From an uncultured Bacteroidales bacterium (lineage in GTDB: Bacteria; Bacteroidota; Bacteroidia; Bacteroidales; UBA932), in assembly GCA_946402945.1 (NCBI GenBank), contig CAMIYB010000003.1, positions 36,807 through 100,806 of the forward strand: 64,000 bases of DNA, given 5' to 3'. Position 1 is the stretch's first letter, and each line of letters begins with the position of its first letter. The notes under the pieces are model-generated. The model was given only the letters and a program-made list of their open reading frames with translations. It was not told where the DNA came from and ran no database searches. A program made the position numbers and the translations under genes. Positions 25,865 through 31,942 of this stretch are shown one piece after another.

Positions 25865-25919
25865 TACACGCGCGGGCGGAAAGGATATAAAATCCTTTCG
25901 ATTCCGACAAAAAATGAGT

Positions 25920-25948
25920 AACTTCGCGCCGCGTTTGTGCGCGAAGTT
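25920..25948 (+). promoter_or_regulatory. Leader hairpin overlapping a possible -7 box upstream of nqrA
   Basis: AACTTCGCGC (25920-25929) / GCGCGAAGTT (25939-25948), 10-bp perfect stem; TAACTTCG spans its left edge. Confidence 0.5.
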
Positions 25949-25964
25949 TATTTTTATTCATAAT

Positions 25965-27323
25965 ATGTCAAACAACATCCATCTTAGACGTGGGCTGGAC
26001 ATTCCCCTTGCGGGAGCGGCGGCCCTGAAGACCTGTGGGGTCATCACGCCTGGGACCATCGCCCTCAAGCCCGAGGATTTCAAGGGGATCGTACCCCGGC
26101 TGCTCGTGCGCGAGGGGGACAAGGTCCTGGCCGGTTCCCCTGTCCTGTGCGACAAGCAGCGTCCCGAGATCCTCATCACCGCGCCGGTAAGCGGCACGGT
26201 GGAGGCCGTCGTCCGTGGCGAAAAGCGCAAACTGCTGGAAGTGCGTATTGCGCCTGACGCCGCCCGGGAAGCCGTCGATTTCGGCGCCCGCGAGGCCTCC
26301 GGACTCTCCGGAGACGAGGTACGCGACCTGCTTCTGCGCAGCGGTCTGTGGGTTTCACTCGTCCAGCGTCCCTACGGCATCGTCGCCGACCCTGCCGTCA
26401 CCCCTAAAGCCATTTTCATTTCCGCCTTCAACACGGCGCCCCTGGCGGCCAATCCCGAGTATGTGCTCGGCGATCAGGCCGAGGACATCCAGGCCGGTGT
26501 CGACGCCCTGGGCAAACTGACCCGCGGCGGCGTCCACCTCAGCCTGAACGAGGCCAACTACGAAGGCACCCCCTTCCACCGCATCGAGAACGTCATCCAG
26601 CACGTCTTCAGCGGGAAACACCCGGCCGGCAACGTCGGCGTCCAGATCAGCCACATCGCCCCGATCCGGAAAGGCGAGACGGTCTGGACCGTGTCCCTGC
26701 TGCTGACGGCCGCCATCGGCCGCCTCTTCCGCACCGGCAAGGTGGACCTCTCCCGCAAAGTGGCGGTCACCGGCCCCGTGGCCAAAGACCCCGCCTATGT
26801 CGATGCCCTCCCCGGCATCGCCATGCGCGACCTCTCGGCTTTCTGCGACAGCACCGCCGGCGATGTCCGCTTCATCAGCGGCGACGCGCTCACCGGCACC
26901 AACGTGGGTGCCGAGGGCTTCCTGGGCTGGTTCGACAACCAGGTGACCCTCCTCCACGAAGGAACGGAGCGCGAAGTGCTCGGATGGGCCAAGCCCTTCC
27001 GCTTCGGCAAGTTCTCCGCCACCCGTACCTATCTGCCGAACGCCCTCCCCGGCAAGCGCTATGCCCTCGACACCAATACTAACGGCGGCGTCCGCGCCTT
27101 CGTCGTGTCCGACGTCTACGGCAAGGTGCTGCCGATGGACATCTTCCCCGTCTATCTGACCAAGGCCTGCCTGGCCGGCGACATCGACAAGATGGAGAAG
27201 TTCGGCATCTACGAAGTCCTGCCCGAAGACCTGGCCCTCTGCGAATACGTAGACCCGTCCAAGAACGAGATCCAGGCCATCATCCAGCAGGGTATCGACC
27301 TGATGATCAAGGAAATGGCATAA
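25965..27323 (+). CDS. nqrA: Na+-translocating NADH:quinone reductase subunit A
   Basis: MSNNIHLRRGLDIPLAGAA...; operon context nqrABCDEF; start at 25965 preferred to 25914. Confidence 0.93.
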   Translation: MSNNIHLRRGLDIPLAGAAALKTCGVITPGTIALKPEDFKGIVPRLLVREGDKVLAGSPVLCDKQRPEILITAPVSGTVEAVVRGEKRKLLEVRIAPDAAREAVDFGAREASGLSGDEVRDLLLRSGLWVSLVQRPYGIVADPAVTPKAIFISAFNTAPLAANPEYVLGDQAEDIQAGVDALGKLTRGGVHLSLNEANYEGTPFHRIENVIQHVFSGKHPAGNVGVQISHIAPIRKGETVWTVSLLLTAAIGRLFRTGKVDLSRKVAVTGPVAKDPAYVDALPGIAMRDLSAFCDSTAGDVRFISGDALTGTNVGAEGFLGWFDNQVTLLHEGTEREVLGWAKPFRFGKFSATRTYLPNALPGKRYALDTNTNGGVRAFVVSDVYGKVLPMDIFPVYLTKACLAGDIDKMEKFGIYEVLPEDLALCEYVDPSKNEIQAIIQQGIDLMIKEMA

Positions 27324-27335
27324 ATCGAAACGACC

Positions 27336-28484
27336 ATGGAAGACAACAAGACAACGCAGCCCGGCCTCTTCGAGAAAGGGGGTAAACTGGGCTTCCTCCA
27401 CTCAACTGTGGACGCTTTCGACACCTTCCTCCGCGTGCCTGCGACCGTGTCCCGCAAGGGTTCGCACATCCGCGACATCGTGGACATCAAGCGTGTGATG
27501 ATCATCGTGGTGATCGCCCTCATCCCCGCCGCCCTCTTCGGCATGTGGAATGTCGGCTATCAGCACAACCTGGCCGTCGGTGACACCGTGACAGGGTTCT
27601 GGGGGACTTTCTGGTATGGTTTCCTGAAGGTTCTCCCGCTCTATATCGTCTCCTACGTGGTGGGTCTCGGCATCGAGTTCACCTCCGCCCAGATCAAGGG
27701 CGAGGAAGTCAACGAGGGTTACCTCGTTTCGGGCTTCCTCATCCCGCTCATCGTTCCGGTGGACGTTCCCCTCTGGATGCTCGCCCTGGCCACCGCCTTC
27801 GCCGTGCTCTTCGGCAAGGAGGTCTTCGGCGGCACCGGCATGAACTTCCTCAACCCGGCCCTCCTGGCCCGCGCCTTCCTGTTCTTCTCCTATCCGAGCA
27901 AGATGTCCGGCAGCGAGGTCTGGATCGCCCTGCGCAAGGGTGAGACCTTCGTGGACGGCGTCACCGGCGCCACCCCGCTCGCCCACATGTCCGAGGGCAT
28001 CGCCGGCATCCAGGGAGCCGGTTATGACTGGTGGAGCCTCTTTGCAGGTACCGTTCCCGGCAGCGTGGGCGAGACCAGCATCATCGCCATCCTCCTGGGC
28101 GCCTGCCTGCTCATCGCCACCGGCGTGGCCAGCTGGAAGATCATGTGCTCTTCCGTACTGGGCGCCCTCTGCGTGGGCTGGCTGGGTACGGCCTTCGGCG
28201 TCACCGACGTCCCGGCCTGGTATCAGCTCCTGCTCGGCGGCTTCGCCTTCGGTACCGTCTTCATGGCGACCGACCCGGTGACCTCCGCCCAGACCGAATG
28301 CGGCAAATGGATCTACGGCTTCCTCGTGGGTGCCCTGTGCATCACGGTGCGCCTCTTCAACCCGGGCTATGCCGAGGGTATGATGCTGGCCATCCTGCTG
28401 ATGAACACCTTCGCCCCGCTGATCGACCACTGCGTGGTGAGCGCCTCCATCGCCCGCCGCGCCAAGAAACTCAGAACCGTCTAA
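27336..28484 (+). CDS. nqrB: Na+-translocating NADH:quinone reductase subunit B
   Basis: VTGATPLAHMSEG (FMN site), multiple TM segments, operon order. Confidence 0.94.
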   Translation: MEDNKTTQPGLFEKGGKLGFLHSTVDAFDTFLRVPATVSRKGSHIRDIVDIKRVMIIVVIALIPAALFGMWNVGYQHNLAVGDTVTGFWGTFWYGFLKVLPLYIVSYVVGLGIEFTSAQIKGEEVNEGYLVSGFLIPLIVPVDVPLWMLALATAFAVLFGKEVFGGTGMNFLNPALLARAFLFFSYPSKMSGSEVWIALRKGETFVDGVTGATPLAHMSEGIAGIQGAGYDWWSLFAGTVPGSVGETSIIAILLGACLLIATGVASWKIMCSSVLGALCVGWLGTAFGVTDVPAWYQLLLGGFAFGTVFMATDPVTSAQTECGKWIYGFLVGALCITVRLFNPGYAEGMMLAILLMNTFAPLIDHCVVSASIARRAKKLRTV

Positions 28485-28496
28485 AGGATACGCGCT

Positions 28497-29429
28497 ATGA
28501 ATACGAACAGCAATCTGTACACAGTTATCTACACGACCGTCATCGTGGTGGTCGTGGCCGCGGTCCTTGCGATTGTTTCCCAATCCCTCAAGGGCAGGCA
28601 GGAAGCCAATGAGAAGGCCGACACCATCTCCCAGATGCTGACGGCCGCCGGTTTCGGCACCAAGGCCGAGTTCCAGGCCATGGGCAACGCCGCCGTCCTG
28701 GACAAGTATGCCGAGGAAATCGACAAGGCCTTCGTGGTGGACGTGGACGGCCAGAAGGTCGCCGACCTCCCGCTGGACCAGGTCTATTCCCCGTCCCAGC
28801 TCAAGAAACAGAACTACAACCTCAAGGGCGCTGACACCCCGCAACTGCCCGTCTTCGTTTTCAAGAACGGCATCACGGTCGTTCCCGTTTACGGAGCCGG
28901 CCTTTGGGGCCCGGTCTGGGGCTACATCGCCTTCGAACCGGCCTCCAACACCATCAAGGGCGCTTACTTCGACCATGAGTCCGAGACCGCCGGCCTCGGC
29001 GCCAAGATCAAGGACGATCCCGCCTTCCAGGCCTCCTTCTCCGGCGAGAAGGTCCTCTTCGACCAGGACGACCCCTTCGACATCGTCAAGGGCGGCGCTC
29101 CCCGTGACGCGGAGGACAAGAGCCTAATCGACAACAAGATCGACGCCATCACCGGCGCCACGATGACCTCCCAGGGTCTGGAGCGGGCCATCGAGACCTG
29201 GCTCGGCGCCTATGCCAAGTACTTCCTCGGAGCCGCCCCTGAAAGCTGCGCCCCCCAGGGCGAGGCATGCTGCTGCTCCGGCTGCGAGAAGGACTGCTGC
29301 GCCACCTGCCCCTGCGAGAAGTGCTGCACGTCCGAGGACTGCACCCTGTCCTGCGGCGAAAACTGCTGCTCCACCCAGTGCGGCTGCTGCGCCGAGGGCT
29401 GCTGTGAAACCAAAACCGTGGAGGAATAA
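28497..29429 (+). CDS. nqrC: Na+-translocating NADH:quinone reductase subunit C with a Cys-rich C-terminal extension
   Basis: GAGLWGPVWGYIAFEP; DAITGATMTSQGLERAI (covalent FMN SGAT/TGAT-type site); unusual tail ESCAPQGEACCCSGCEKDCCATCPCEKCCTSEDCTLSCGENCCSTQCGCCAEGCCETKTVEE. Confidence 0.94.
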   Translation: MNTNSNLYTVIYTTVIVVVVAAVLAIVSQSLKGRQEANEKADTISQMLTAAGFGTKAEFQAMGNAAVLDKYAEEIDKAFVVDVDGQKVADLPLDQVYSPSQLKKQNYNLKGADTPQLPVFVFKNGITVVPVYGAGLWGPVWGYIAFEPASNTIKGAYFDHESETAGLGAKIKDDPAFQASFSGEKVLFDQDDPFDIVKGGAPRDAEDKSLIDNKIDAITGATMTSQGLERAIETWLGAYAKYFLGAAPESCAPQGEACCCSGCEKDCCATCPCEKCCTSEDCTLSCGENCCSTQCGCCAEGCCETKTVEE

Positions 29430-29432
29430 GCC

Positions 29433-30047
29433 ATGGATGCAAAACTGAAAGAAACTATCCTGAACCCGATTTTCAAGGGTAATCCGATCACCGTCCTGGT
29501 GCTCGGTATCTGTTCCTCCCTCGCGGTGACCGTCACCCTGAAGGGCGCGCTCGTCATGGCGCTCTCCGTCATCGTGGTGACCGGTATTTCCAGCCTCATC
29601 CTGTCGCTGCTGCGCAACACCATCCCCGGTCGCGTGCGCATCATCGTCCAGTTGGTGGTCGTGGCCATGATGGTGATCCTGGTCGATCAGATCCTCAAGT
29701 CTTTCGAGGCTACCTATGCCATCGACAAGCAACTGAGCGTCTATATCGGTCTGATCATCACCAACTGTATCGTCATGGGCCGCATCGAGGCCTTCGCCCT
29801 GGGCAACAAACCCTGGCCGAGTTTCCTCGACGGCGTGGCCAACGGTGCCGGCTACGGCATGATCCTGCTTATCGTGGCCTTCTTCCGCGAACTGCTCGGA
29901 AGCGGCACGCTCTTCGGCGTGGACGTTCTGGGCTGGCTCGGCTATGTGCCCAACAACCTCGTCATCCTGCCGCCCTTCGCCCTCATCCTCCTGGGATGCA
30001 TCGTATGGGTGCAGCGCGCGATTCAGAAAGACCTTCAGGAAAAATAA
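29433..30047 (+). CDS. nqrD: Na+-translocating NADH:quinone reductase subunit D
   Basis: TNCIVMGRIEAFALGNKPWPSFLDGVANGAGYG; operon order. Confidence 0.94.
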   Translation: MDAKLKETILNPIFKGNPITVLVLGICSSLAVTVTLKGALVMALSVIVVTGISSLILSLLRNTIPGRVRIIVQLVVVAMMVILVDQILKSFEATYAIDKQLSVYIGLIITNCIVMGRIEAFALGNKPWPSFLDGVANGAGYGMILLIVAFFRELLGSGTLFGVDVLGWLGYVPNNLVILPPFALILLGCIVWVQRAIQKDLQEK

Positions 30048-30059
30048 TCTCGACGCCTT

Positions 30060-30656
30060 ATGGAATATCTTAGCTTATTCGTAAAGTCCATCTTCGTGGA
30101 CAATATGATCTTCGCATACTTCCTGGGAATGTGCTCATTCCTGGCGGTATCGAAGAATGTGAAGACGGCTGCAGGCCTGGGTCTCGCCGTTATCTTCGTC
30201 TTGTTGGTCACCCTTCCGATCAACTATCTCCTCAACACCTATGTGCTGGCCCCCGACGCCCTGATCGAAGGGGTGGACCTGAGTTTCCTCAGTTTCATCG
30301 TCTTCATCGCGGTCATCGCCGCCATCGTGCAGGTCGTGGAGATGGTCGTGGAGAAATTCTCCCCGGAACTGTACTCCTCCCTCGGTATCTTCCTGCCGCT
30401 GATCGCGGTGAACTGCGCCATCCTGGGCGGTTCCCTGTTCATGCAGCAGAAGGACTTCCTGAACATCGGTGAAGCCGTCGTGTACTCCCTCGGCTCGGGT
30501 ATCGGCTGGTTCCTCGCCATCGTCTCCCTCGCGGCCATCCGCGAGAAGATGGCGTACTCGAACGTCCCGCCGGCCCTCAAGGGTCTCGGCATCACCTTCA
30601 TCACCGTCGGTCTGATGGGCATCGCCTTCATGACCTTCATGGGTATTTCACTGTAA
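30060..30656 (+). CDS. nqrE: Na+-translocating NADH:quinone reductase subunit E
   Basis: [44 protein letters not shown]. Confidence 0.94.
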
Positions 30657-30670
30657 AGGAGGAAAGCGCT

Positions 30671-31942
30671 ATGGGAAATACATTGATTTCTGCCATCCTC
30701 GTGATGCTCGTCGTGACGGTCCTGCTGGCCATCCTGCTGGTCTGGATCAAGAACGCCCTCATGCCCTCCGGCTCCGTCAAGGTGTCCATCAACAACGGTT
30801 CCAAGGAACTGGAAGTCACCCCCGGCGGTGACCTGATGCACACCCTCGCGGACCACGGCATCTTCCTCCCCTCCGCCTGCGGCGGCAAGGCCAACTGCGG
30901 CCAGTGCAAAGTCCGCGTGGTGGAAGGCGGCGGCGAGATCCTCCCTACGGAAAAAGGTTTCTTCTCCCGCAAGGAGATCAAGGCCGGCTGGCGTCTGGGC
31001 TGCCAGGTCAAGATCAAGGACAATGTCAAAATCGCCGTTCCCGAGTCCGCCCTCAGCGTGAAGAAACTCGAGTGCGAGGTCATCTCCAACAAGAACGTAG
31101 CTACCTTCATCAAGGAATTCACCGTGCGTCTGCCCGAAGGCGAGCACATCGAGTTCAAGTCCGGCGAGTACATCCAGATCGACATTCCGGAGTACGACGT
31201 CGATTTCGCCGACATGGACGTGGATCCGGAATACCGCGGCGACTGGGAGAAATACGGTTTCTTCGGCCTCAAGTACAAGAATACCGTCCCGACCATCCGC
31301 GCCTACTCCATGGCTTCCTATCCTGCCGAGCGGAACGTCATCAAACTCAACGTCCGTATCGCCACCCCGCCTTTCGACCGCAGCCAGCCGCGCGGCGTCT
31401 TCAAGATGCTGCCGGTGCCTCCCGGCATCGCCTCGACCTATGTCTTCTCCCGCAAGCCGGGTGACAAGGTGATGATTTCCGGTCCTTACGGCGAGTTCCT
31501 CCTCCCGGAGAACGACCCGGACAGCCAGGAATACATCTTCGTCGGCGGCGGCGCCGGCATGGCCCCGCTCCGCAGCCACATCATGCATCTGTTCAAGACC
31601 CTGCACACCAAGAAGGAGGTCCACTTCTTCTACGGCGCCCGCTCCCTGGTCGAGGCCTTCTACCTCGAAGACTTCGCCGAAATCGAGAGCGAGTACCCGA
31701 ACTTCCACTTCCACCTGGCCCTCGACCGTCCGGATCCGGCCGCCGATGCCGCCGGTGTGAAGTACACCGCAGGTTTTGTCCACAATGTCATGAACGAGAC
31801 CTATCTCAAGGATCACGAGGCCCCCGAGGACATCAAGTACTTCATGTGCGGTCCGCCCATGATGGTCGCCTCGGTCAACGCCCTGCTCGACAGTCTCGGC
31901 GTCGCCCCCGAGAGCGTGCTCTACGACAACTTCGGAGGCTAG
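30671..31942 (+). CDS. nqrF: Na+-translocating NADH:quinone reductase subunit F
   Basis: PSACGGKANCGQCKVRV 2Fe-2S site; FAD/NAD domains; YFMCGPPMM. Confidence 0.95.
   Translation: MGNTLISAILVMLVVTVLLAILLVWIKNALMPSGSVKVSINNGSKELEVTPGGDLMHTLADHGIFLPSACGGKANCGQCKVRVVEGGGEILPTEKGFFSRKEIKAGWRLGCQVKIKDNVKIAVPESALSVKKLECEVISNKNVATFIKEFTVRLPEGEHIEFKSGEYIQIDIPEYDVDFADMDVDPEYRGDWEKYGFFGLKYKNTVPTIRAYSMASYPAERNVIKLNVRIATPPFDRSQPRGVFKMLPVPPGIASTYVFSRKPGDKVMISGPYGEFLLPENDPDSQEYIFVGGGAGMAPLRSHIMHLFKTLHTKKEVHFFYGARSLVEAFYLEDFAEIESEYPNFHFHLALDRPDPAADAAGVKYTAGFVHNVMNETYLKDHEAPEDIKYFMCGPPMMVASVNALLDSLGVAPESVLYDNFGG

Follow-up and report, generated by a model that had tools for sequence, protein, structure and literature searches.

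Complete nqr operon with an extended NqrC subunit

The window, i.e., the whole analyzed stretch of 64,000 nucleotides from an uncultured Bacteroidales bacterium, encodes a complete Na+-NQR operon, in which all six nqrA-F subunits score above an equivalog cut-off. The following features were assigned to this operon:

25914..27323, + strand: nqrA (NF003761, 530.8 bits, above cut-off)
27336..28484, + strand: nqrB (TIGR01937, 436.8 bits, above cut-off)
28497..29429, + strand: nqrC, Na+-NQR subunit C with C-terminal Cys-rich tail, 310 aa (TIGR01938, Pfam FMN_bind)
28497..29240, + strand: NqrC core, 248 aa, one N-terminal transmembrane helix and periplasmic FMN domain (alignment to PDB NqrC chains 3lwx and 7xk3; confident AlphaFold2 core)
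29160..29162, + strand: codon of Thr222, the predicted FMN-attachment threonine in ITGAT, equivalent to Vibrio Thr225 (alignment to 7xk3)
29241..29426, + strand: NqrC tail, 62 aa with 20 Cys, predicted periplasmic (20/20 Cys invariant across five species)
29433..30047, + strand: nqrD (TIGR01939, 267.1 bits, above cut-off)
30060..30656, + strand: nqrE (TIGR01940, 309 bits, above cut-off)
30671..31942, + strand: nqrF (TIGR01941, 562.2 bits, above cut-off)

The window NqrC scores 157.7 bits against the NCBIfam nqrC equivalog TIGR01938 (cut-off 144) and also matches Pfam FMN_bind. It contains an (S/T)GAT-type FMN-attachment motif, ITGAT, whose Thr222, aligned to 7xk3, corresponds to Thr225, the FMN threonine of Vibrio NqrC (PMC10739449). 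Judged by its sequence, the core is an ordinary NqrC, and none of its 248 residues is a cysteine. Enzymes of the ApbE family attach FMN to proteins such as NqrC, and an ApbE flavin transferase was found in the genome of the window as well as in four other genomes with the tail described below. Each of these four showed a single ApbE; the window genome (G000) has a second, more divergent ApbE-like gene on contig C4 (29676-30374) in addition to its copy on contig C14. The nqr operon has no metal-resistance gene next to it, and an Rfam search around it matched no RNA regulator.

Known NqrC proteins (TIGR01938; 3lwx and the Vibrio structures) share the core sequence, the transmembrane anchor, the FMN motif, and the operon place with the window protein; however, they end soon after the FMN domain, whereas the window NqrC continues in frame at 29241-29426 with 62 residues that include exactly 20 cysteines. 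The stop codon follows at 29427-29429 and, after three bases, nqrD begins at 29433. The tail had been described in a sequence-only reading of this DNA, and the open reading frame (28497-29429), the TIGR01938 match, and the operon context bear that description out. Nine neighboring genes have a Cys content of 1.47%, at which the binomial probability of at least 20 Cys in 62 residues is approximately 1e-21. In a Cys-density survey of a 400-kb genome sample and the window, the next most Cys-rich 60-residue stretch among the ~720 longest open reading frames of the window genome and G215 holds 8-9 Cys, the top of these stretches being from an iron-sulfur-type protein. The tail has no Phe, Trp, or Tyr and contains adjacent CC pairs and one CCC run; the CC pairs are only slightly more frequent than composition predicts, and spacings of 4 and 5 between Cys are recurrent. 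The AlphaFold2 model is confident for the core and predicts a disordered tail (pLDDT of about 38-64 in tail models). The likeness to metallothioneins that the same reading had noted holds for the length of 62 aa, the 20 Cys, the CC and CxC pairs, the lack of aromatic residues, and the predicted disorder of the apo form.

Conservation and distribution of the 20-Cys tail

The same 20-Cys tail was found in four further species (L105/G088, L033/G215, L050/G316, and L054/G060), and the other carriers were sampled from sheep, water buffalo, and yak forestomach. The sequence-only reading had proposed an alignment with related NqrC proteins, and had named absence of the tail from all close relatives, an assembly frameshift, and rapid drift of the Cys positions as outcomes that would speak against a genuine module. 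In the five species the tail is conserved with all of its Cys, as 20/20 Cys columns are invariant vs. 14/42 of the others (Fisher P 1.8e-7). Differences at four-fold-degenerate sites, summed over ten pairs, amount to 44/105 (42%) in the tail and 445/963 (46%) in the core, so that the 20 Cys have stayed in register at a core-like synonymous divergence. Since this divergence is similar in both parts, the tail is about as old as the divergence of the cores, with its Cys under purifying selection. The genome that contains the window is metagenome-assembled, fragmented into 96 contigs and 70.6% complete, which could be taken to favor an assembly or frameshift artefact; however, the contigs of four other species' assemblies encode the tail at codon-level divergence, each ending at the nqrC stop, and this refutes an artefact. 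A recent horizontal transfer of the tail was also considered and is unsupported, because the four-fold-site divergence is alike in tail and core.

Of 400 genomes of the genus searched with the profile, only 5 contain the 20-Cys tail, and in a sample of 150 genomes the family's other 25 genera yielded no tail of this type. Close sisters can be wholly unlike: where L004 carries the 20-Cys tail, L101 ends in an acidic tail without Cys. On the best tree the five carriers are split, with four changes, at least three of them forced by the starred branches; one clade of the five carriers is unrejected by the AU test (p 0.19). From these sequences, both an old loss in the sister lineages and exchange may be compatible with the observed distribution. 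Another candidate, a free-standing or mobile module, was rejected, since confident matches of the 20-Cys profile in 400 genomes and of the 13-Cys profile (see the following section) in 300 genomes were located only at NqrC ends. Two of three weak extra matches were inspected (L110 and L112), and these lie inside other genes in a different frame; the search of the tail profile against plasmids gave no match.

Diversity of Cys-rich tails in NqrC

The analyzed set of 155 distinct NqrC sequences, nearly all from one genus and mostly from rumen Bacteroidales, comprises 87 tails without Cys, six with one, and 62 with two to twenty. To the last group belong the 20-Cys type and a 13-Cys CxC type of unrelated sequence, along with many short tails of the CC or Cys/His kind, such as the Cys/His-rich HEGCEGQHEGC in L141. 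The 13-Cys type follows the pattern CxC..CPC..CxCDCHC..CxCPxCxC..C, with 13/13 Cys kept in seven NqrC; among its carriers is L142, whose core is only 57% identical to the window core. The 20-Cys and 13-Cys types align no better than their composition predicts. The best maximum-likelihood tree of the NqrC cores requires at least 26 changes between tails with at least two Cys and tails with fewer. Outside the genus, nearly all of ~48 NqrC ends, taken from further genera and families within the order, are without a Cys tail. L215 (G611), from a different family, carries a 13-Cys tail and L218 (G509), of the same genus as L215, a 4-Cys tail, neither of which is related by sequence to the tails of the window genus. 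The Cys-rich state has thus arisen at least twice and probably many times.

Several tails carry traces of their own history. The NqrC tails of L032 (CCGGSSSQETM) and L046 (DSTCxKAxC) are formed by tandem Cys repeats, which suggests growth of the tail sequence via repeat expansion. In L029 and L067 (~2192) and in L093 (~3239), the in-frame sequence TTTCGAGCGAAGTCGAGAAATC (VISSEVEKS), which we take to be a repeat scattered across Bacteroidales genomes, lies within the NqrC tails of close relatives; a chromosomal repeat seems to have inserted into the sequence that encodes the tail. In L045, the nqrC stop is missing and, from 1184, the Cys-rich tail runs in frame into NqrD (475-aa fusion), which is either a real fusion or a sequence error.

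The tails with at least two Cys have further features in common. His occurs in 35/62 of them vs. 9/87 Cys-free tails, and makes up 4.6% vs. 0.8% of residues. His accompanies Cys in ~7 phylogenetically independent pairs and runs against it in 0 (median sign-test P 0.016); the greater length of the Cys tails favors this pair count, but not the per-residue enrichment. Aromatic residues are nearly absent from tails with Cys. The 13-Cys type shows a strong enrichment of CxC, and the other tails show one of CC. The Cys counts of the 62 tails are odd in 28 cases and even in 34, and so high a frequency of odd counts speaks against strict disulfide pairing. No VKOR was found in seven genomes searched, and no DsbB in the five 20-Cys-tail genomes, two of which are <75% complete. 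As these usual membrane partners of periplasmic disulfide formation are perhaps missing, the Cys may stay reduced.

These data bear on the possibility that the NqrC end is a permissive disordered terminus tolerating any hydrophilic tail, with Cys-rich sequences arising by drift or short repeat expansion without function. The extreme turnover and length variation of the tails would fit this explanation, as would the tandem repeats in L032 and L046 and the repeat insertion in L029/L067/L093. It is opposed by the two long types, which retain 20/20 and 13/13 Cys although their synonymous sites have diverged strongly, and by an enrichment that is specific to Cys and His and recurs on many branches, and we regard it as quite unlikely. 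Functionless drift is disfavored for the 20-Cys and 13-Cys types and may be possible for the shortest 2-Cys tails.

Predicted location and function of the tail

In solved Na+-NQR complexes, the hydrophilic domain of NqrC is periplasmic, with a single transmembrane helix as anchor, and swings between NqrB and NqrD/E during turnover (PMC10643135). By homology to these complexes, the 20-Cys tail, which begins 27 residues after the FMN threonine Thr222, is predicted to sit on the periplasmic face, near the FMN; the sequence-only reading had left the membrane side undecided, and on this point it is corrected. Its suggestion that the tail might bind Fe-S or deliver iron is weakened. An Fe-S or other electron-relay tail, accepting electrons from the NqrC FMN or supplying iron to the NqrD/E cluster, would make sense of many Cys close to a flavin; however, Fe-S assembly takes place in the cytosol, i.e., on the wrong side for a periplasmic tail, and the ferredoxin motif CxxCxxCxxxC is absent from the 20-Cys tail, which also matches no 2[4Fe-4S] family. 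Moreover, NQR clusters have their own ligands, the NqrD/E cluster being already bound by four Cys (PMC10739449), and a role of this kind is very improbable.

The main rival to metal binding is a disulfide or thiol-redox module, either a mini-domain knotted by disulfides or a thiol/disulfide buffer, which would exchange electrons with the nearby NqrC FMN or protect the complex against oxidants. The periplasmic location predicted by homology, the even Cys number of the 20-Cys type, the strict Cys positions, and the start of the tail only 27 residues past the FMN threonine are all in its favor. However, 28/62 tails have odd Cys counts and His is co-enriched, simple disulfide folds would not easily accommodate the CC pairs and the CCC run, and no confident fold is predicted for the tail; VKOR and DsbB were not found in the carriers either, although two of the genomes are <75% complete and other oxidases are possible. 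On balance, we consider such a module unlikely, yet a serious contender.

Metal-thiolate binding is the simplest reading of the conserved Cys, the co-enriched His, the odd Cys counts, the disorder, and the interchangeable unrelated sequences. Apo-metallothioneins are disordered, and the NqrC tail would likewise be unfolded without metal and would wrap around several ions of a soft metal, Zn(II) or Cu(I). Mammalian metallothionein uses its 20 Cys to form Zn(II) and Cu(I) clusters (PMC9846682). By analogy with these 20-Cys proteins, each tail could hold ~7 divalent ions. The tail would thus act as a tethered Zn/Cu buffer or trap on the outer face of the Na+ pump, which might protect the cofactors and ion sites exposed there against thiophilic metals, keep metal for the periplasm, or both; the selected trait would be a dense set of soft-metal ligands at the NqrC end rather than a particular fold. 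Metal binding itself, the identity of the metal, and the shielding or buffering role of the tail are points that we infer only. Several observations count against the metal reading: only a minority of the genus has the tail, so that NQR function does not require it, metal-resistance gene neighbors are lacking at the operon, and a metallothionein outside the cytoplasm could become oxidized. Taken together, we give about an even chance to the proposal that the tail is a putative metal binder, i.e., a metallothionein-like metal-thiolate module on the periplasmic end of an otherwise normal NqrC. The broader proposal, that one gut Bacteroidales genus and at least one other family have repeatedly placed unrelated metal-thiolate tails at this end of NqrC, is tentative and falls somewhat short of an even chance.

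Comparison with known Cys-rich proteins

The tail matches no metallothionein family in Pfam, NCBIfam, or PDB. Animal metallothioneins, with human MT2 as the yardstick, resemble it in the length of ~60 aa, 20 Cys, CC and CxC pairs, lack of aromatics, and disorder without metal; however, there is no similarity past composition, as 11.5% of shuffles align equally well with human MT2, and the NqrC tail, a predicted metal binder, is fused to a membrane-anchored periplasmic domain. The bacterial metallothioneins SmtA and BmtA are small free cytosolic proteins with fewer Cys and with aromatic residues. They are comparable to the NqrC tail as Cys-rich bacterial segments, and His joins Cys in many related NqrC tails, but no sequence similarity is present, the alignment with SmtA again being no better than shuffles. 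Other bacterial proteins, SlyD being an example, have metal-binding Cys/His-rich tails that stand behind a folded domain and are species-variable, as are the NqrC tails, but these are cytosolic and not part of respiratory complexes. The NqrC tail therefore lies outside the catalogued metallothionein families and, if metal-binding, would be metallothionein-like in design. A literature search for NqrC together with 'cysteine-rich' found no paper within its coverage, outside which lay most subscription journals and all bioRxiv preprints.

Biological implications

Na+-NQR is a central energy converter in gut Bacteroidetes and many other bacteria, and its NqrC subunit bears a periplasmic flavin domain. 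We know of no earlier metal-buffering module built into a respiratory complex, and the NqrC tail would be the first if the proposal is true. The novelty, if the tail binds metal, would be a respiratory complex equipped with a metallothionein-like module, at a site where tails are repeatedly replaced. Such a module would tie energy conservation to the metal chemistry of the rumen (Zn/Cu feeding, sulfide). Repeated placement of unrelated metal-thiolate tails at the NqrC end, if true, would point to a metal-linked function, or a vulnerability to metal, that has gone unrecognized on the outer face of the Na+ pump. With its many unrelated Cys-rich tails, this one site is further a natural experiment on the birth of metal-binding domains from short disordered tails.
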